64,000 bases of DNA, taken from NCBI GenBank assembly GCA_025059375.1, contig JANXDO010000002.1, positions 128,966 through 192,965 of the forward strand, written 5' to 3'. Below the pieces are notes generated by a model. That model searched no databases and was not told the DNA's origin. It was given only the letters and a program-made list of their open reading frames with translations. The stretch is from Candidatus Nezhaarchaeota archaeon. Lineage in GTDB: Archaea > Thermoproteota > Methanomethylicia > Nezhaarchaeales > WYZ-LMO8. This document shows, piece by piece, positions 47,613 through 61,972 of the stretch (positions within the stretch are counted from its first letter, which is position 1; each line of letters opens with the position of its first letter). Made by a program: the position numbers and the translations under genes.

Positions 47613-48479
47613 TTATTGAGGAAGCTTTTCAGGCACGAGGTACGGCATTTTTGCTCTGAATGCGACTATGGGATTTTGCATCTTCATTAAGTGGGTGAGA
47701 AGAGCCTTCTTGCCCCTATTAGTTAAGGCGAAGACTGGTATCGATATGCCAAGCTGAAATATTGCATGTGGAGCTATCTTTTCTCTCACAATCCTGGAGT
47801 TACATGCCCAAACGAGGTCTGCTAACATTAGGTTCTCAACATCACGCTCCGCAGCGCGAGTGTTACATACGCTCATTATCGTTACCTCGACATTCGAAGC
47901 ACGTTCGAGATCCCTTATACGAGGAATTTCTAAGCTTTTGAAACCAGCCACGGTAACGGCTATCCGCTTAAAGCCTCTTTGAGCTGCTACCTCAACACCC
48001 TTGGCTTGGTCTATCAAGGCTTTATCTTCATCTACTACAATCCCTCCATGTTGCTTCAGCACACTGATTATTTCTGGTATGGGTGTTGTCTCAATAATTC
48101 CAGTCAGGAAGGCACCAATCATCTGAACGAGCTTAGGGTTTGGCGATATGACTGTACCAGCACCCTCACAGACCGTTATGGCACAGTCAAAGATGCCCTC
48201 TTCTAAGCACGACATGAGTATCTCCGAGGCTCCGAACGGAACTAATGGTTCTGTAATGAATGCTCTGTCCTTAGAAGCGAAACCTAACCTCTCCATCCTA
48301 CTTATTATCTTTCTCCTTACAGCCTCTCTATCTATGAGCTTGTAATCAGGTAAACTAAGGGTCATTAGCGGGCATTGCTTTGTTAAAGGATCATCAAGAA
48401 CTCTTACCTCCGACCCCATGATCTCTACGCGTGCTCCACAACACATTATCAAGTGTCTAGGCACTAGGCTAAGCACCAC
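47613..48479 (-). CDS. DUF2099 protein, methanogenesis marker protein 8 family
   Basis: The 288-residue protein shows the whole conserved pattern of this family. KQCPLMTLSLPDYKLIDREAVRRKI is followed by PFGASEILMSCLEEGIFDCAITVCEGAGTVI, then LVQMIGAFLTGIIETTPIPEII, IDQAKGVEVAAQRGFKRIAVTVAG and DLVWACNSRIVRE. The family (TIGR03275) was defined by its near-restriction to methanogens; its function is unknown. Several Cys residues are conserved, including a CC pair at residues 13-14. GTG at 48479 opens the frame; GTG five codons later or ATG at 48446 are alternatives. The PHP gene follows. Confidence 0.85.
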   Translation of the reverse strand: MVLSLVPRHLIMCCGARVEIMGSEVRVLDDPLTKQCPLMTLSLPDYKLIDREAVRRKIISRMERLGFASKDRAFITEPLVPFGASEILMSCLEEGIFDCAITVCEGAGTVISPNPKLVQMIGAFLTGIIETTPIPEIISVLKQHGGIVVDEDKALIDQAKGVEVAAQRGFKRIAVTVAGFKSLEIPRIRDLERASNVEVTIMSVCNTRAAERDVENLMLADLVWACNSRIVREKIAPHAIFQLGISIPVFALTNRGKKALLTHLMKMQNPIVAFRAKMPYLVPEKLPQ

Positions 48480-53339: not shown

Positions 53340-54614
53340 TTAAATCATCAGCTCATCTACAGGCTCTTTAAGGAGGAAGGCACCTTCCTCTACAAGCATT
53401 TTTAGTCTTGAGGCTAGCTCTCTAGCCTTCCTACGGCTTGACTGTCGTAGAACTATGGGCACAACCCTACCATCAACAATTATGTTACCCAGATTCGCTC
53501 TAAAGGCGCCCGTTAGGCATAGCCATGTGCATGCCCCACAATCAAAACACTTTGACCTTAATACCTTGTGCTCTTTTCTGATAAATGCTTTCGTCGGACA
53601 CTTTTCCTCGACTGGGCATAAGGCTACTCCACAGTTCTTACACAAGTTTGAGTCGTACTTGACTTCTAGATCGGCTTTTTGCCATACATAAGCATAGTTT
53701 GAATAGCCTATGACCATTCTATTGTTCACGTTAGCTACTGGTAGCGGTATCTCTGAGTCAAGTCTCTTAGCGTATTGAAGCATTTCATGGTCAAGTATTG
53801 GTATAGGTATAGCGATTGAAATGTACAGTTCGGGTCCAGCTGACGTTATGAACTGGCCCATGAACTCGGTGTTCATCCCCTTCATATTCGCACAAATCGA
53901 TAGATTCGGTCTATCTTTTGTACTTCTAGTTCCTGTGCCGATTACGTAGCCTATAACATCATTTATCAAGACCCTACTACCAACACCTACGGTTCTGAGC
54001 AGTGGGTCCTTCTCAAGGGGGTTAAGCTCTCCGCACCCAGAAACCGTTGCCATTCTCCATGGACCTTTAAGTTCACCAACAGAGAAGATGGTCTTTACGG
54101 GTTTCTCGTCGGGATTTACAAATGCCATGTAGTTCTTGAATGCACTACGAGTAGTGAGCATTTTAGCGTAACCCATCTCATCAAGTTTTATATCGCTTTC
54201 TATGAGCTTCCCCTCAACGCTCTCAACCTTAACATGCGCTTTCTTGCCCTCCACCAAATCGCAGAAGAGGGCTGCTCCACCATAACTCTCAGGCTCCTCG
54301 ATACTGCGAGATGTGCTGTAGACCACGACGTCTAGTATGCCGAGCCTCTCGTTGGGGCATGGTCCCGGATAAGCTGGTACACCATTCATCCACACATGTG
54401 CGGCTTTGGTAAAGGTGCCACATTCCGAAACCCTGAACGAGAATATTGCCATTGTCCCACTCATAATTCCACATGTAGCTGCAGTAACTACATCAACATC
54501 GTCGACGTCCACATGCTCCCCTCTTCTAACCATGTCACATAGCTCCTCAGCCGTTAATATGACAGCCTCGCCTCTCTCGATTTTTCTATTGATTTCATCT
54601 ATTGTCTTGGTCAT
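53340..54614 (-). CDS. DUF39 (COG1900) homocysteine-biosynthesis protein with ferredoxin tail
   Basis: Residues 1-310 are DUF39, with a conserved Cys in TAATCGIMSGTMAIFSF (residue 48) and another in YGGAALFCDLVEGK (118). These may correspond to the two Cys reported as important in the Methanosarcina protein. The C-terminal 110 residues hold two [4Fe-4S] motifs (CKNCGVALCPVEEKCP and CFDCGACTWLCL). In Methanosarcina, DUF39 (MA1821) and a separate ferredoxin protein (MA1822) build homocysteine from aspartate semialdehyde and sulfide. Here both parts are one chain, without CBS or NIL domains. A TATA-like AATATATG (54649-54656) places its own promoter just upstream. Confidence 0.88.
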   Translation of the reverse strand: MTKTIDEINRKIERGEAVILTAEELCDMVRRGEHVDVDDVDVVTAATCGIMSGTMAIFSFRVSECGTFTKAAHVWMNGVPAYPGPCPNERLGILDVVVYSTSRSIEEPESYGGAALFCDLVEGKKAHVKVESVEGKLIESDIKLDEMGYAKMLTTRSAFKNYMAFVNPDEKPVKTIFSVGELKGPWRMATVSGCGELNPLEKDPLLRTVGVGSRVLINDVIGYVIGTGTRSTKDRPNLSICANMKGMNTEFMGQFITSAGPELYISIAIPIPILDHEMLQYAKRLDSEIPLPVANVNNRMVIGYSNYAYVWQKADLEVKYDSNLCKNCGVALCPVEEKCPTKAFIRKEHKVLRSKCFDCGACTWLCLTGAFRANLGNIIVDGRVVPIVLRQSSRRKARELASRLKMLVEEGAFLLKEPVDELMI

Positions 54615-54754
54615 GGACTTACCGCTCCAAGATGAGCTTTTCTAGCTTACATATATTCCTCTCTCATACACATTGCTGGTGTAAACTATCGAGTGATTTG
54701 AGACGTGAATATTGCCCGCAACTTGGTAGCCTTAATGGTAATCATGGATTGTAA

Positions 54755-55555
54755 CTATGGGTTTGAAGCTTGCCACCTCTTCACTCGCATAGCCTTCTCT
54801 ATCTCTTCTCTGAGCATCTCTAATATTCTAGCCCTTAGCTCTATGAATTCTCGACTGAGCCTGTTTCTAGGTCTCGGAAGGTCAACCTTCACTACATCCT
54901 TCACTTTGGCCGGCCTGAAGGTCAATACAACAATTCTGTCTCCTAGGAATACAGCTTCCTCAACATTATGGGTCACGAAAATTATGGTCTTTCGAGTTTT
55001 CTCCCATATCTCTATGAGCTCCTCTTGCATATAGTTTCTTGTCTGAGCATCAAGCGCACTTAGAGGTTCATCCATCAAGAGTATCTCGGGGTCACATGCC
55101 AGCGCCCTTGCAAGGGCTACCCTCTGTCTCATTCCGCCGGAGAGCTCATGTGGATACATGCTCTCAAAACCTTCAAGGCCAACCAGCTCTATGTACTTCA
55201 TAGCCTCCTTTACTGCTTCATCTTTAGGCATCCCCTTGAGCTCTAGGCCGAAAGTCACATTACCCAAGACGGTCCTCCAAGGGAAAAGAGCATACTCTTG
55301 AAATACCATAACTCTGTCGGGTCCAGGTCCCCTAATTGGCTTCTGTCTTAGTAAGACCTCTCCGCTTGTTGGCTTTTCAAGTCCAGCCAAGATCCTGAGC
55401 AAGGTTGTCTTACCACATCCACTCGGACCAACTATGCATAGGAGTTCTCCCTCGTACACATCAATGCTTATGTCCTCGAGGGCAATGACGTCGGGTGATC
55501 CCTTGAACACTTTCTTTAAATTCTTAACTGTTAGAATGATGTTACGCGATGACAA
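54755..55555 (-). CDS. NitT/TauT-type ABC transporter ATPase
   Basis: The 266-residue protein has Walker A GPSGCGKTT, the NitT/TauT-typical VFQEYALFPWRTVLGNVTFG, signature LSGGMRQRV, Walker B ILLMDEPLSALD and switch FVTHNVEEAV. It drives import of sulfonates, nitrate, cyanate or thiamin-precursor-type ligands, with the permease and binding protein encoded just upstream. Its start overlaps the permease stop by 14 bases. A 140-base gap separates its end from the DUF39 gene. Confidence 0.92.
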   Translation of the reverse strand: MSSRNIILTVKNLKKVFKGSPDVIALEDISIDVYEGELLCIVGPSGCGKTTLLRILAGLEKPTSGEVLLRQKPIRGPGPDRVMVFQEYALFPWRTVLGNVTFGLELKGMPKDEAVKEAMKYIELVGLEGFESMYPHELSGGMRQRVALARALACDPEILLMDEPLSALDAQTRNYMQEELIEIWEKTRKTIIFVTHNVEEAVFLGDRIVVLTFRPAKVKDVVKVDLPRPRNRLSREFIELRARILEMLREEIEKAMRVKRWQASNP

Positions 55556-56327
55556 GGCCAGCCCTCCAAGCTAAGACTCTGTTCTCTATCGCCCCATACA
55601 TTCTGTCCAGTAGCAGGCCTAAAATCCCTATCATAAGCATGTAGGCTATAATTATGTCGGGGGAGTGGTAGAACCTAGCGATTTCTATCTGATATCCTAA
55701 ACCGTAAGGGGCTACTCCAAAGAGTTCAGCAGCCACAACACACATCCAAGCTATTCCTGAGCCTATTCTTATACCGGTTAGAATTGATGGTAGTGCAGCC
55801 TGGATGACGACCTTCCTTATTAATGTTAAGCTCTTTATTGCCCCAAGAGTCATGGCTGCTTCTAAGTACTTAACCTCAACAGAGGCAACTCCATGCCTCG
55901 TGTTTAGGAGTATTGGAAATACAGCTCCAATAAATATTATGAAGCCTGCAGCTGTGTGCGTCAACTTAAGCATCAGTATTGCTATTGGTATCCAAGCTAT
56001 TGGAGGAATTGGTCTTACCAGTTCAATTATTGGGTATGATAGCCGGTTAGCGAGCTTAGACCACCCAGCAATTAACCCAACAGTGAAACCAACAACGATG
56101 GCCAAGCTAAAGCCTATGGCGTAGTGGAACAAGCTATACAAGATGTCGAGAGGCATAAAAAAGCGAGGTGGCTTCCCGACAGTCACTAACTCGATTAGGG
56201 TCATGAGGACTTTTGAGGGGGGAGCAAGTAAGAAGGGGTTATTTATTATCAACCAGTAAAAGATCTCCCACACACAAAAAAATATTGAGAGGGATACTAT
56301 TGGAGTGATTAACCTCCTTAGTTTCAA
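55542..56327 (-). CDS. NitT/TauT-type ABC transporter permease
   Basis: The 261-residue membrane protein has six hydrophobic segments. The BPD_transp loop EAAMTLGAIKSLTLIRKVVIQAALPSILTGIRIG couples it to the ATPase, and GSGIAWMCVVAAELFG is typical of SsuC/TauC. Its start is one base from the stop of the binding-protein gene, so the transporter genes are co-translated in the order binding protein, permease, ATPase. Confidence 0.92.
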   Translation of the reverse strand: MKLRRLITPIVSLSIFFCVWEIFYWLIINNPFLLAPPSKVLMTLIELVTVGKPPRFFMPLDILYSLFHYAIGFSLAIVVGFTVGLIAGWSKLANRLSYPIIELVRPIPPIAWIPIAILMLKLTHTAAGFIIFIGAVFPILLNTRHGVASVEVKYLEAAMTLGAIKSLTLIRKVVIQAALPSILTGIRIGSGIAWMCVVAAELFGVAPYGLGYQIEIARFYHSPDIIIAYMLMIGILGLLLDRMYGAIENRVLAWRAGLVIA

Positions 56328-56328
56328 T

Positions 56329-57372
56329 TCAGCCTAGCCCCAATATAGCCTTTATCTGGGGTACAATTTTTAATGCTTCTTCATAAAGTGAGCTATCAAC
56401 TATGTCACCAGCTTTCAACCTCACCGGCCGTCCTTCAGCGGTCTTAGTTAGCCCGAGTTGATAGTGCACTTCACACATGTAGTCCAGTCCCTCGAGCCAA
56501 TTAAGGTTCCTGGGATCGGACATTAGGTTCGTTGAGCCTGGGAACATCTCTGCTACCTCTCTTCGTATGCCCAGCCATTTGATTAGTATCTGTTTAACTT
56601 CATCCCTGTTCTTGGGGTCCATAGCATACTCGCTCGCTATGATATGTAGGGCAATAAGTTTCACTGCCAAGTCTCTATGCTTCCTTATGAATTCTTCAGT
56701 CATTAGGACTACGCAGCATGGGTGTTGAGGCCACATATGGCGTGAGGTGATGGCTATCTTACCATAACCTTCGAGGACAGCTATGTACGGTGCAGGGTCA
56801 GGAGTTAATATAGCATCCAAGGCTCCAGCTCTAAGAGACTCTAACTGCTCAGCTGGTCCACGTTGATTGATTATTCTCACTTTGTCGATGGATATGTTGT
56901 TCTTGAGCAGCCAGTACTTCAGTAAGGTGTCTTGTATTGAGCCTGGAGGGTAGACACTAACGCTTCTGCCTATGAGTGAGGCGGGTCCTTCATACCTGAA
57001 GTCAGGTCTTACTACAAGTGATGAGCCCTCAGTGTTTGCAACCGCTACCATCTTCGCTTTGAAGCCCTTCGCTATTACTGATAGTGGAGGGGCTGCACCG
57101 ACATAAACTACATCCAGCTCACCCGCAACCATGGCCTCCATCTGCGGAGGGCCTGATGGGAATTCACGTAGAGTAACGTTGATGCGGTCCCCCAATACCT
57201 TTTGGAGCCATCCCTTCTCAGCCATTATGAAGAAGGCGACGTGATGCCAGCTTGGTTGGTAGCTTATGCGTACCTGAGCTGCTTGAGCCCACGGCACCAA
57301 TGCAATGGTTACACTGATGGCTGCAACGATTATCAAGATTGTAGCTAAGAGAATCCACTTACTCCTCTTCAT
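56329..57372 (-). CDS. NitT/TauT-type ABC transporter substrate-binding protein
   Basis: Taken from the ATG at 57372, this is a 347-residue protein with a clean signal-anchor (KRSKWILLATILIIVAAISV). An NMT1/SsuA-like domain follows: VRISYQPSWHHVAFFIMAEKGWLQKVLG, MVAGELDVVYVGAAPPLSVIAKG, SVYPPGSIQDTLLKYWLLKNN. The frame is open to 57423, but a TATA-like AATATAAAA (about 57403-57412, reverse strand) would start transcription near 57382, between the two start candidates. That favours the shorter form and gives the transporter its own promoter. The ligand may be a sulfonate, other sulfur anion or nitrogen anion. Confidence 0.88.
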   Translation of the reverse strand: MKRSKWILLATILIIVAAISVTIALVPWAQAAQVRISYQPSWHHVAFFIMAEKGWLQKVLGDRINVTLREFPSGPPQMEAMVAGELDVVYVGAAPPLSVIAKGFKAKMVAVANTEGSSLVVRPDFRYEGPASLIGRSVSVYPPGSIQDTLLKYWLLKNNISIDKVRIINQRGPAEQLESLRAGALDAILTPDPAPYIAVLEGYGKIAITSRHMWPQHPCCVVLMTEEFIRKHRDLAVKLIALHIIASEYAMDPKNRDEVKQILIKWLGIRREVAEMFPGSTNLMSDPRNLNWLEGLDYMCEVHYQLGLTKTAEGRPVRLKAGDIVDSSLYEEALKIVPQIKAILGLG

Positions 57373-57490
57373 GGCTGATCCAGTTTTTCTGTTTGGGTTG
57401 GATTTTATATTACTTTTGGACATTTTTGTGTCGAAAAAGAATTGTTAATGAGAATCCTGTCAGAAAATTCTCCAGCAACCAAGCATTTTT

Positions 57491-58411
57491 CTACGCGTGA
57501 AATGTTAAGTATGGCATCTCATCCTCGCTTACTCTTCTTTTCTCTAGCCCTGGAACTCCATAAGAGTCTGCTCTACACTGCTTACATAACCTAAATTGTC
57601 TTATGTATTTGCTCGCTTCATTTCTTATGATTCTTAGCTCTTCACATGTTGGTGGCCTATGGTTCTTGAAGGAGTGGAGTGGTATTAGTGGAATTATGTT
57701 TTGTATAAAGGCACCTAACTCAGCTGCCTTCTTGGCTACTTTTATGACCTCCTTCTCGTTTAGTCCAGGTATTAGAACCGTGTTTACCTTAACAATGAGG
57801 CCTGCGTCCACAGCTTCTTTGAGGCCCTTAAGCTGCTTATCTATTAGTATCTTGGTGGCTTCTAGGCCTCTTATTAGCTTTTCATTTATTATGATGTACT
57901 CGTAGATCTTAGATGCTATTTCAGGGTCTAAAGCGTTAATAGTGACTGTCACAGCTCTTATTCCTAAGTTCTTGAGGTCTGAAATCTTATCTTCAAGTAG
58001 AAGACCATTTGTAGCGATGCATTTTATGAGCTCTGGGTGTCTCTCATTTATTAACTTGAAGGTTTCAAATGTCTCATCATTAAATAATGGTTCTCCTGGT
58101 CCAGCTACAGCAACGACTCGCAGCTTCTCATCTTTCGCAAGCACGCTGTCTACAAGTTTAGCTGCTTCTTCAGGTCTCATTATGGTGCATGTGACTCCTG
58201 GTCTGTATTCACACTTATCTATGCCTCTCTTACAGTAGCCACATTGAATGTTACATTTGGGTGCTACTGGAAGATGAATACGCGAGAACTCGAAGTGAGC
58301 TTGAGGATTGAAGCAGGGGTGACATGAAAGCCAGTGAGGGTATTTGCTACCAATGCCCTTAAATCTTAGCTCCTCAATCCTTTTCACGATCCCAAGATTT
58401 TCTCGATTCAT
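57491..58411 (-). CDS. NifB-like radical SAM [Fe-S] cluster maturase (stand-alone)
   Basis: The 306-residue protein carries the full NifB core pattern. HPCFNPQAHFEFSRIHLPVAP has His31 and Cys33. The radical-SAM motif CNIQCGYC has Cys53, 57 and 60. RPGVT is preceded by Glu68. VAVAGPGEPLFNDETFETF follows, then Cys131 in CIATNGL and a C-terminal LCKQCRADSYG (Cys276, 279). In NifB these residues bind the SAM cluster and the two K-clusters that are fused into NifB-co for nitrogenase. NifB proteins in genomes lacking nitrogenase are known. No nifH, nifD or nifK lies nearby. Its ATG overlaps the transglutaminase-like stop in ATGA, implying coupled translation. Confidence 0.86.
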   Translation of the reverse strand: MNRENLGIVKRIEELRFKGIGSKYPHWLSCHPCFNPQAHFEFSRIHLPVAPKCNIQCGYCKRGIDKCEYRPGVTCTIMRPEEAAKLVDSVLAKDEKLRVVAVAGPGEPLFNDETFETFKLINERHPELIKCIATNGLLLEDKISDLKNLGIRAVTVTINALDPEIASKIYEYIIINEKLIRGLEATKILIDKQLKGLKEAVDAGLIVKVNTVLIPGLNEKEVIKVAKKAAELGAFIQNIIPLIPLHSFKNHRPPTCEELRIIRNEASKYIRQFRLCKQCRADSYGVPGLEKRRVSEDEMPYLTFHA

Positions 58412-58989
58412 TTTTTTATCCTCCCGCGCACCAAGATTGATACTACGTTAGGGCCCCAGCTGTCTAAAAAGAGCTTGAACTTCTCGTCGGGGGTCATAGC
58501 CCTAATCTTATCTAAGTGCTCTTCAATCTTAGCCGTGACACCTTCTTGATTAATTATGTTCTCAAATGGCTTGAGGAGTAGATTTACTGGGAGGTCAGGG
58601 TACGTGCCAAGAATCCTAAGTCTATAGATTGATGGTATACATGATAGGTCTAAGCCAAGTTCCCAGTCCCTCTTCCATTGTGGATGAGAGAGTTGAAAAT
58701 CCAGTGTTGCATCACATCCCATCCACATTCCATTAACATAAACTTCAGCCAGTACGTGGATTATGGTCTCTGCGAGGAGCTTGTAGATATCAGCAGGTAA
58801 ATAAGGCTTCAGGACGTCCGAACGGACCTCTTCAAGCCTATATCTCGCTGGGATGCTTGCCGCTCTAAGCAAGGCTATTTGAAGGCTTGCTTTATTAAAG
58901 CATGCCCCCTTTTTGCTCTCTAAAACCTTTATTGCTGGCTTTACACCTTCTATTGTCCACTTGATGTAGTCTCTAACGAAGAAGTACAC
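58408..58989 (-). CDS. Transglutaminase-like protein coupled to the NifB-like gene
   Basis: The catalytic Cys-His-Asp set of the transglutaminase-like fold is visible: KKGACFNKASLQIALLRAASIPARY, HVLAEVYVNG and GCDATLDF. From the GTG at 58989 it has 193 residues. The family-like N-terminus (YLAPTSYAQSDHQEIVKLAKK, then AIKSVYFFVRDYIKW) continues in frame up to about 59118, where no ATG, GTG or TTG occurs. A TATA-like stretch near 59127-59139 predicts an mRNA start near 59108, so a non-standard start (ATA at 59106) or a sequence error should be considered. Such proteins are often proteases; in this operon a role in cofactor or peptide processing is speculative. Confidence 0.75.
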   Translation of the reverse strand: MYFFVRDYIKWTIEGVKPAIKVLESKKGACFNKASLQIALLRAASIPARYRLEEVRSDVLKPYLPADIYKLLAETIIHVLAEVYVNGMWMGCDATLDFQLSHPQWKRDWELGLDLSCIPSIYRLRILGTYPDLPVNLLLKPFENIINQEGVTAKIEEHLDKIRAMTPDEKFKLFLDSWGPNVVSILVRGRIKK

Positions 58990-59553
58990 GCTTTTAATGG
59001 CGTCAGCCGCCTTTAGCCCATTAGTAAGCTTCTTGGCAAGCTTGACTATCTCTTGGTGATCTGACTGAGCATAACTTGTTGGCGCTAAGTACTCTACTCC
59101 AACTATATCCTCACCTCGAGATCAAGCGTTTTTTAAGCTTAAAAAGATCCCTCTCCATTTCGTTAAAAGTAAAAAGTGGTATGGAAGCTTAGTAGGATTG
59201 TTGCAGCTAGAATCAATCTTTAAGTTTTTAGTCTTGAGGAGTTAGCATTCTGCAATGTAACAGTTATTGTGAGGCTGCAGGTTAACTGAATCACTAATTC
59301 ATATTTATGCCCTTAGAGAGAACTCTCAGCTAGTTACTATAAAGCATAAGTCCTACAATTAGCATTTTAGACCTTGGGACCTTGCCTTCTTCAATAAAGC
59401 TTTCTCGCTGAGACAATATTCTTAAATGATTGCCGTACGCTTAGAGCTGCAATTTGCCCCTAAGCGGTGGTTGAAGCTGAGTTCTTATTAAATCCTCATA
59501 TATACCTCCTTACCGTAAACAAATTATTAAGAGCTGGTAGATGGAGGTCATCC
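58990..59553. promoter_or_regulatory. Divergent control region between the NifB and UPF0280 genes
   Basis: Apart from the probable transglutaminase N-terminus (to about 59106) there is no gene. A 7-bp inverted repeat, CGCTTAG (59438-59444) and CTAAGCG (59460-59466), lies about 90 bases before the UPF0280 start. TATA-like AT-rich tracts occur for both directions. No repeat links this region to the DUF39 promoter. Confidence 0.35.
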
Positions 59554-60288
59554 ATGACCAAGTTGGTGAAGTTCTTCTATGAAATTGGGGAGTCTAAGGG
59601 GGTTGTGAAATGCGATAGTGTTGAAGGTGCTAGAGCAGCTATTAAAGCTATTGAGCATCACAGACGTTTACTCGAGAAGTACATTTTGAGACGACCTGAG
59701 TTTAAGTATGCGCTTGAGCCTATTGATGTGGAGGATGGTGCCCCCACAGTTGTTCAGAGGATGGTTGAGGTATCTAAGATCGCTGGTGTTGGCCCAATGG
59801 CTGCTGTTGCTGGCGTACTGGCTGACTTAGCTTTAGAAACCGCTTTAAGTGTTGGCTCGAAGATCGTGATGGTCGAGAATGGTGGCGAGGTGGCAATGAC
59901 CGGCGACTACACATTTAAGGTTAAGATAAATGCCGGTTCATCACTAATATCCGGGAAAATAGGGTTGAAGGTGGCGCCATCTGACATGCCAATAGGGATA
60001 GCTACAAGCTCGGGGACTTATGGTCACGCTTTAAGCTTCGGCATAGCCGATGCTGTGACGGTGGTAGCCGACAATGCAGGGCTTGCTGATGCAGCGGCAA
60101 CGGCAGTATGCAACATGGTTCAAGGTGAGGATCTTAGAAAGGCTCTAGAAAGAGGATTAGAGAAGGCAAAGGAGATAGGGAAGGTGAGGGGGGTCATAAT
60201 CGTGCTCCGCGACTTAATAGGGTTATGGGGCAAAGTACCTCAAATAATAGTTTTGAGAGATCAGGAGCACCATCACCTCATAGCGTAA
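59554..60288 (+). CDS. UPF0280 (COG2122) sulfide-assimilation-associated protein
   Basis: About 244 residues from the ATG at 59554, which has GGAGGT at 5 bases; an in-frame GTG at 59467 lies further upstream. The ApbE-like fold is seen in PMAAVAGVLADLALE, VMVENGGEVAMTGDYTFKV, SGTYGHALSFGIADAVTVVA and NAGLADAAATAVCNMV. In Methanosarcina acetivorans, the COG2122 protein MA1715 helps assimilate sulfide into homocysteine together with DUF39. Finding it 5 kb from a DUF39-ferredoxin gene supports the same pathway here. The ending DQEHHHLIA is His-rich and could bind metal. Confidence 0.86.
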   Translation: MTKLVKFFYEIGESKGVVKCDSVEGARAAIKAIEHHRRLLEKYILRRPEFKYALEPIDVEDGAPTVVQRMVEVSKIAGVGPMAAVAGVLADLALETALSVGSKIVMVENGGEVAMTGDYTFKVKINAGSSLISGKIGLKVAPSDMPIGIATSSGTYGHALSFGIADAVTVVADNAGLADAAATAVCNMVQGEDLRKALERGLEKAKEIGKVRGVIIVLRDLIGLWGKVPQIIVLRDQEHHHLIA

Positions 60289-60304
60289 AAAGTGGGTGAG
60301 ATGT

Positions 60305-61972
60305 CTATGGCTTGATTTCTATCAAGTCGACTGGGACCGTCTTTATAACCATCTTACCTCCTTCAAGCTTTATGATCACATTCTTAAGCCAATTGGTGTC
60401 ATCCCTTTCAGGGTAGTCTTCTCTGTAATGTGCTCCTCTGCTTTCAGTTCTGTAGAGCGCAGCTGATGCAACTATCTTGCCGGTACACACCATATTCATT
60501 ACGTCTATAGTTTCAATCAGTGCTTGATGATCGCCTTTACCTCCTAGGTATACTCTTGGCAGTTCATTGATTTCTATGTATTCAAGTTCTGCAAGAGCCC
60601 TCTTTAGACCCTCACCTGTCTTGATTACTCCAACATAGTCGTCCATGATCCTCTGTATCTTCCCCTTGAGTTGTGAAGCTGAAATGCCCTCCTTCCTCTC
60701 GTATATCTCATAGACCATCTTTATGCATTTTTCTACCTGCTTCTCATCCACGTCAACTTCGCCTATGCTCTTAGCCCTCTCGGCGGCGTAGAAACCTGCC
60801 CTAGCCCCAAAGACTTGAGTATCTGTTAAAGCGTTACCACCAATCCTATTAGCGCCGTGCACTCCACCAGCTGCTTCACCAGCTGCGTACAACCCTGGAA
60901 CTGATGACTCGCAGTTTTCGTTTATCCTGACACCCCCCATACAGTGATGTACTCCAGGAGCCCACTCTATTGGTTGCCAAGTTATGTCTATACCTAGCGC
61001 TTGATAGGCCTTCCAAACTTTCTCCCAGGCCTTAACAATATTCTCTGGTACCCCCGAGAGGTCCATGTATAAGCCGCCACGAGGTGTTGCTCTACCAGCT
61101 TTGATTTCTCGATAAGCAGTTATGCAGACGACATCTCTTGTTACGTTCTCTAACCTCTCACGATCATATTTCTTCATGTACCTTTCACAAAGTGCATTGT
61201 AGAATCGTGCCCCATGAGCCACCCAGCCATCATATGGTGGTGGAAAACCCCTTAAGCTTGTTGGGTGCACTACGCAGGTCATCCACTGTATGAACTCCAT
61301 ATCTATGAGTTCAGCTCCAGCCCTATAAGCCATCGCGTAACCGTCACCAACTACGTCGGGTGGATTTGATGTTAAGGGGTACATGTTTCCCAAGCCGCCC
61401 GTTGCTAGTATTGTGGACTTAGCCTTAAACACATAGAAGAGACTAGCCTTCCAATCAAATCCAATAGCTCCAACAACGGAGCCTTTACTTTTGATTAGAT
61501 CCAACACTAGGACGTTAGGATAAACTTTAACGCCAAGTTGACGAACTTCGCTCACTAACCCTTTCATGAACTCCCCTGCCACAGCGACGAAATTCCTTGG
61601 ATGTGTAGTTCCGGATGCATGGATGATTCTATAGCCTCCAGTTTCATCTTTAATGAATTGGGTGCCGAATTCTTCAAGGTCCTTCAGTCTTTGTAGAGCC
61701 TCTTGAGCCATTACCTTGACGAGCCTCTGGTTGCTCATGTACACCCCACCTATCACTGTATCTTTGAAGTGGGCTTCTGGACTATCTTGAGGTAAGTAAG
61801 AAGCCTGATAACCTCCCATGGCCCTCGGAGTACATCCTGAGGGGAAGCCTCCCTTAGCTGTAAGGACTACTTCGACACCTCTACGCTTAGCCTCTATTGC
61901 AGCTCGTGTTCCTGCACCACCAGCACCTATAACTAAGACGTCCGTTTTAATTAACTCATAATTCCTTGTCAA
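60305..61972 (-). CDS. Fumarate reductase/succinate dehydrogenase-type flavoprotein
   Basis: The 555-residue flavoprotein has DVLVIGAGGAGTRAAIEAKRRG for FAD, GCTPRAMGGYQAS, the catalytic-site RATPRGGLYMDLSG, APGVHHCMGGVRINENCES, and GGNALTDTQVFGARAG, with a helical C-terminus. It matches FrdA/SdhA, thiol:fumarate reductase A and aspartate-oxidase relatives. Its partner iron-sulfur and anchor subunits are absent on both sides, so it acts either with distant subunits or as a soluble reductase. The 500 bases upstream are gene-free. It converges with the UPF0280 gene. Confidence 0.88.
   Translation of the reverse strand: MTRNYELIKTDVLVIGAGGAGTRAAIEAKRRGVEVVLTAKGGFPSGCTPRAMGGYQASYLPQDSPEAHFKDTVIGGVYMSNQRLVKVMAQEALQRLKDLEEFGTQFIKDETGGYRIIHASGTTHPRNFVAVAGEFMKGLVSEVRQLGVKVYPNVLVLDLIKSKGSVVGAIGFDWKASLFYVFKAKSTILATGGLGNMYPLTSNPPDVVGDGYAMAYRAGAELIDMEFIQWMTCVVHPTSLRGFPPPYDGWVAHGARFYNALCERYMKKYDRERLENVTRDVVCITAYREIKAGRATPRGGLYMDLSGVPENIVKAWEKVWKAYQALGIDITWQPIEWAPGVHHCMGGVRINENCESSVPGLYAAGEAAGGVHGANRIGGNALTDTQVFGARAGFYAAERAKSIGEVDVDEKQVEKCIKMVYEIYERKEGISASQLKGKIQRIMDDYVGVIKTGEGLKRALAELEYIEINELPRVYLGGKGDHQALIETIDVMNMVCTGKIVASAALYRTESRGAHYREDYPERDDTNWLKNVIIKLEGGKMVIKTVPVDLIEIKP

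Follow-up and report, generated by a model that had tools for sequence, protein, structure and literature searches.

A stand-alone NifB in a Nezhaarchaeota genome without nitrogenase and its likely part in MCR activation

A close counterpart has been described in Methanococcus maripaludis by Ramirez-Amador et al. (Nature 2025, PMC12176620), who showed that MCR is activated by an ATP-driven complex of McrC, Mmp7, Mmp17, Mmp3 and A2. The complex holds three clusters shaped like the nitrogenase L-cluster, and their carbide awaits spectroscopic proof. The cluster residues are C12, H49, C55 and H118 of McrC, and H84, C90 and C143 of Mmp7, one of the seven being a possible bridging cysteine. The same publication cites work in which NifB proved indispensable to methanogens that lack nitrogenase, and its authors infer that NifB probably makes the clusters of the activation complex; NifB in TACK archaea is also covered there (PMC12176620).

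The cluster ligands of three NifB proteins have been published. In Ma NifB the radical SAM cluster is bound by C50/C54/C57 and K1 by C30/C63/C129 together with H43, while the H28A mutant retains the nitrogen ligand. In Mt NifB, from Methanothrix thermoacetophila, the K1 ligands are C29, C128, H42 and E65, the K2 ligands are C273 and C276, and C62 is the fourth ligand of the radical SAM cluster. In Mth NifB the K cluster is held by C18, H31, C115, C260 and C263, with E53 located in a loop.

The locus presented here comes from a genome of Candidatus Nezhaarchaeota (Thermoproteota), assembled into 14 contigs of 1.47 Mb in total and 96% complete; the stretch of 64,000 nucleotides analysed, from contig JANXDO010000002.1, is referred to as the window. 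An earlier note, based on the letters of this stretch, described a NifB-like protein with apparently intact cluster ligands and no nitrogenase structural gene in view, and proposed another use for its 8Fe-type cluster or an ancestral role. A comparable case is that of Methanocaldococcus sp. FS406-22 and M. jannaschii, where nifB lies away from the nif genes, a homologue is also present in a non-fixer, and an extra function has been suspected; FS406-22, unlike the window organism, fixes nitrogen (PMC8809328).

The window NifB and its cluster ligands

The single nifB copy of the genome starts with ATG and encodes 306 amino acids (Table 1). The protein matches the nifB model TIGR01290 along residues 29–290 with an E value of 2.2e-82. 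Its score, 277 bits, is below the curated cut-off of 343.65; NifBs encoded within nifH-nifB-nifDK-like operons of other Thermoproteota reach 301–326 bits and are likewise below it, so the cut-off is no separator of function here. The PDB matches are 6y1x, 7jma, 7bi7 and 7jmb (E 1e-93 to 3e-89), with 6y1x at the top (E 1.4e-93), and the identity to the crystallised NifBs 6y1x and 7bi7 is approximately 50–55%. Other radical SAM families (MoaA, heme maturases, viperin) were rejected on account of bit scores more than three times lower. The AlphaFold model (mean pLDDT 80, pTM 0.82) is predicted to share the fold of the NifB crystal structures: the top five Foldseek matches in the PDB are all NifB (E 3.5e-33 to 2.5e-27; TM 0.84–0.97, by target), with a TM of 0.93, normalised by target, for 6y1x. 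Residues 277–281 and 285–306, among them part of the K2 site, are modelled with low confidence, and the ligands from residue 277 onwards are therefore assigned by sequence alignment. As the profile, PDB and Foldseek matches all point to NifB, the identification given in the earlier note is upheld, and the ORF is a NifB, real and apparently intact.

The 6y1x protein, MtNifB, is the closest in both sequence and structure, and shares all ligands with the window NifB; its loop following the radical SAM motif is of the DCVNE type, one residue longer than the KCE type of the window protein. The NifB of Methanothermobacter thermautotrophicus (7bi7, 7jma and 7jmb), matched with E 3e-89 over window residues 23–291, has the same single radical SAM domain, KCE loop spacing and all ligands, and differs in the organism of origin and in about half of the residues. 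The NifBs of the nearest named Nezhaarchaeota relatives are 78% and 74% identical to the window protein.

Table 1. Features of the nifB region (positions in the window) and nifB clusters of genus g38 (positions in the loci named)
Feature	Position	Strand	Basis or remark
Methanogenesis marker 16 (MMP16/ComF), coenzyme M synthase	53340..54614	-	TIGR03287 499.6 bits, cut-off 364
ABC ATPase, same SsuABC-type transporter	54755..55555	-	NF040729 281 bits, under cut-off; synteny
ABC permease, same SsuABC-type transporter	55542..56327	-	position, synteny
SsuA-type sulfonate ABC substrate-binding protein	56329..57423	-	TIGR01728 143 bits, cut-off 163.5
nifB, stand-alone radical SAM NifB without NifX domain	57491..58411	-	TIGR01290, PDB 6y1x, AlphaFold model
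C276-x2-C279, K2 cysteines	57575..57586	-	= Mt C273/C276, Mth C260/C263; stretch modelled at low confidence
C131, K1 cysteine	58019..58021	-	= Mt C128, Ma C129, Mth C115
C67-E68, flexible loop of KCE type	58208..58213	-	fourth radical-SAM-cluster ligand position (C67, at Mt C62) and K1/K glutamate (E68 = Mt E65, Mth E53)
C53-x3-C57-x2-C60, radical SAM cluster motif (CxxxCxxC)	58232..58255	-	
H46, K1 histidine ligand (HLP motif)	58274..58276	-	= Ma H43, Mt H42, Mth H31
H31-P32-C33	58313..58321	-	C33 = N-terminal K-cluster Cys (aligns with Mt C29, Ma C30, Mth C18); H31 conserved, not K1 ligand
Transglutaminase-like protein	58408..58989	-	PF01841 E 2.4e-11; own 5' end uncertain
UPF0280/ApbE-like protein	59467..60288	+	PRK04334 models E ~1e-65, under cut-offs
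TfrA-like fumarate reductase flavoprotein	60305..61972	-	NF004900 TfrA (CoM/CoB fumarate reductase) 503 bits, cut-off 718
g38 nifB cluster (G076)	L060:7620-12341		
g38 nifB cluster (G062)	L059:3973-8698		

Judging from the alignment with the published proteins, every known NifB cluster ligand is present in the window protein. C33, H46, C53/C57/C60, E68, C131, C276 and C279 are invariant in 16 aligned relatives, in which the loop position of C67 shifts by one residue; with residues invariant or nearly so, chance is excluded. The ligand list of the earlier note stands for C33, C53/57/60, E68, C131 and C276/279, all at published positions, but has to be corrected for His31: this residue corresponds to Ma H28, whose replacement by alanine leaves the nitrogen ligand in place, and the K1 histidine is His46. 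C67, the fourth ligand of the radical SAM cluster, is also present, though absent from that list.

A maximum-likelihood tree was built from 44 NifBs and rooted at its midpoint, with the bacterial branches long and the root unassigned; in it the window NifB groups with Nezhaarchaeota inside a supported clade (100/99) composed of archaea that bear MCR or belong to MCR-bearing groups, and of two g38 proteins. The nitrogenase-linked and bacterial NifBs fall outside this clade, and the tree, a check proposed in the earlier note, places the window NifB among MCR-bearing archaea. The presence of MCR was tested directly for the Thermoproteota members of the clade; Archaeoglobales and ANME-2 are MCR-bearing groups. 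It is also worth mentioning that one ANME-2 genome, QBUR01, has two nifB loci (L024 and L032). A loop of the form C-x6-C-E (KCE) is present in the whole clade, with one residue more in g38, and the remaining NifBs have C-x5-C-x2-E (DCxxE). The idea that the KCE loop marks MCR-linked NifB was rejected: the loop separates the two sets in this sample, but crystallised NifBs of methanogens show both forms, and it is therefore taken as a mark of lineage and not of function.

Nitrogenase homologues, MCR and the neighbours of nifB

Searches of the 96%-complete assembly with PF00142 and PF00148 found no nitrogenase. The genome encodes a single NifH homologue of full length and a single PF00148 protein, and both belong to the same cfbC-cfbE-cfbD-cfbB cluster, which has a Mur-ligase-like gene in the cfbE position and cobalt/nickel-type transport genes nearby. 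The PF00148 protein is CfbD (TIGR03282, 418 bits, cut-off 268), and the best models for the NifH homologue and for the CobB-like protein are CfbC (NF033200, 295 bits) and CfbB, respectively, both under their strict cut-offs. These NifH and NifD homologues are thus predicted to serve the synthesis of coenzyme F430 and not nitrogen fixation. What the earlier note had stated for nitrogenase structural genes in view is true of the genome as a whole at this completeness: only the CfbC and CfbD homologues are present, and the nifHDK locus elsewhere that would have spoken against its reading was not found.

It is very unlikely that a nitrogenase served by this NifB sits in the 4% of the genome missing from the assembly. 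The assembly leaves such a part unaccounted for, and G036, a genome of the same family, encodes a NifH-like protein and three PF00148 proteins (L067, G036:C33:1-8965) besides a CfbD-like one; a methylase resembling precorrin methylases is encoded nearby. However, the G036 proteins match DPOR/NifE models far under the cut-offs, and no NifB was found in G036, which is 72% complete. Three NifB-carrying relatives in the same family (G035, G037 and G039) have at most one PF00148 protein each, with CfbD-level scores, as do, in number, the NifB-carrying relatives from family f9, and the distribution of NifB in the class, described below, follows McrC and not nitrogenase-type proteins.

The window genome encodes MCR and the complete machinery of its activation. 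McrA is recognised with 963 bits, and one 20 kb stretch around mcrBGA encodes McrB, McrG, McrC (271 bits, over the cut-off), Mmp3, Mmp6 and Mmp17 (each over the cut-off), Mmp7 (339.5 bits, just under the cut-off of 349; matching chain H of 8s7v with E 2.8e-70) and two A2-like ATPases, so that all five activation components, McrC, Mmp3, Mmp7, Mmp17 and A2, are encoded. The A2-like double-ABC ATPases are located at L009:11532-13226 (306 bits) and L009:17725-19314 (714 bits), the A2 cut-off being 517. All seven cluster residues of M. maripaludis have their counterparts: C26, H63, C69 and H134 in McrC, and H86, C92 and C145 in Mmp7. Thus, the window genome resembles the system of Ramirez-Amador et al. 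in MCR, McrC, Mmp3, Mmp7, Mmp17, A2, the cluster ligands and the lack of nitrogenase, and differs in belonging to Thermoproteota. The nifB gene lies outside the mcr operon. A homologue of methanogenesis marker 8 (225 bits, just under the cut-off of 233) is encoded at 47613-48479 of the window.

The transglutaminase-like gene overlaps the start of nifB by 4 bases, and this pairing is kept in all Nezhaarchaeota relatives examined. In Methanosarcina acetivorans MMP16 has been demonstrated to act as coenzyme M synthase, and SsuAC of the same organism was called a CoM-specific transporter (PMC12068725). By analogy, the SsuABC-type transporter next to nifB may possibly be a coenzyme M importer, and the stretch 53340-61972, with MMP16/ComF, this importer, UPF0280 and the TfrA-like protein, could represent a coenzyme M supply locus around nifB. 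In locus L068 the UPF0280 gene adjoins that of MMP16, and parts of the CoM gene set are also found beside nifB in G039 and L018. The location of nifB by such a locus is suggestive in that it fits service to MCR.

NifB, McrC and possible further clients in the phylum

Within the class (40 genomes) NifB and McrC are found together in 24 genomes, McrC alone in two, which are 72% and 78% complete, NifB alone in none, and neither in 14. The association gives a Fisher p of 5e-9 with shared ancestry ignored, and it follows few clades, hence few independent events. When completeness is set at 90% or more and contamination at 5% or less, NifB and McrC occur together in 16 of 16. PF00148 proteins do not track NifB: apart from G036 there is at most one per genome, with CfbD-like scores. 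In four relatives, G035, G039, G024 and G031, nifB and mcrC lie on a single contig, which rules out a binning artefact. Across the class, NifB tracks McrC and not nitrogenase-type proteins.

Of the 397 members of the phylum with a completeness of 80% or more, 21 have both proteins, none has McrC only, and eight have a NifB match without McrC. In three of the eight, G244, G315 and G296, all Thermoproteota with genomes of 2.1–2.7 Mb, nifB is part of a nifH-nifB-two PF00148 genes-homocitrate-synthase-like operon (L061, L062 and L063), and the nifH and PF00148 genes of the operon explain their NifB by a nitrogenase-type enzyme. In another three, G185, G190 and G308, the NifB-like protein is short of cluster ligands. 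The degenerate proteins (L064:7269-8126, L065:6503-7360, L066:7603-8454 and L063:16846-17679) have lost radical SAM cysteines and/or K-cluster ligands, and conserved genes adjoin them within a family; the one in G296 is a second copy about 10 kb from the intact nifB. Such proteins show that relics do arise in the phylum, but it is extremely unlikely that the window NifB is itself a radical SAM relic, whether without function or repurposed: its ligands are all intact and kept across relatives, and no near-complete genome of the class that bears McrC lacks nifB.

The last two of the eight, G062 and G076, belong to one genus, g38, are 98–100% complete and encode an intact NifB; neither McrC (at E 1e-15) nor a PF00148 protein was found in them. 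Their nifB is the leading gene of a conserved cluster, all on one strand, that includes MetV-like, MetF-like, VhuG-like and VhuA-like genes (Table 1). Literature searches on NifB in Sulfolobus, Korarchaeota or Bathyarchaeia yielded nothing of relevance. In this sample g38 is the only place where NifB may still have "another use", and in the search for a further client it is a stronger candidate than the window. It is improbable that the [8Fe-9S-C] cluster has a further class of client, distinct from both nitrogenase-like proteins and MCR activation, which the window NifB might also serve; such a class would show most plainly in g38. The gene row of g38 likewise lends some colour to an additional client of the window L-cluster besides MCR activation, e.g., a hydrogenase- or methyl-branch-linked enzyme; this is unlikely, since the window genome offers no reason to postulate a second client, McrC fully accounts for the presence of NifB in the class, and the neighbours of the window nifB differ from those in g38.

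It is very probable that the window NifB is a functional single-domain enzyme of a Nezhaarchaeota-type methanogen, making the L-cluster for the MCR activation complex and not for nitrogenase. By radical SAM chemistry, NifB would join K1 and K2, both [4Fe-4S] clusters, into the [8Fe-9S-C] L-cluster (NifB-co), with insertion of a carbide. Its sequence suggests that the window protein is catalytically active, and its product would be delivered to McrC and Mmp7, which, with Mmp17, Mmp3 and A2, would hold three L-type clusters. These would pass low-potential electrons to the nickel in F430, and the ATP-driven transfer would convert MCR to the active Ni(I) state. No direct biochemical evidence of transfer from NifB to McrC/Mmp7 was found in the literature for any organism. 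The proposal of the earlier note, that an intact NifB without nitrogenase implies another client for an 8Fe cluster, gains support from a genome that lacks nitrogenase and encodes the whole MCR activation complex with its ligands. This other use, MCR activation, was already published in 2025 (PMC12176620), and the case is an ordinary one for methanogens.

The window genome adds genomic support, from a nitrogenase-free lineage of Thermoproteota, for the view, proposed in 2025, that MCR activation has the first claim to the nitrogenase-type [8Fe-9S-C] cluster. Additionally, the g38 pair, near-complete and with an intact NifB and neither known client, makes the question of a further client testable.
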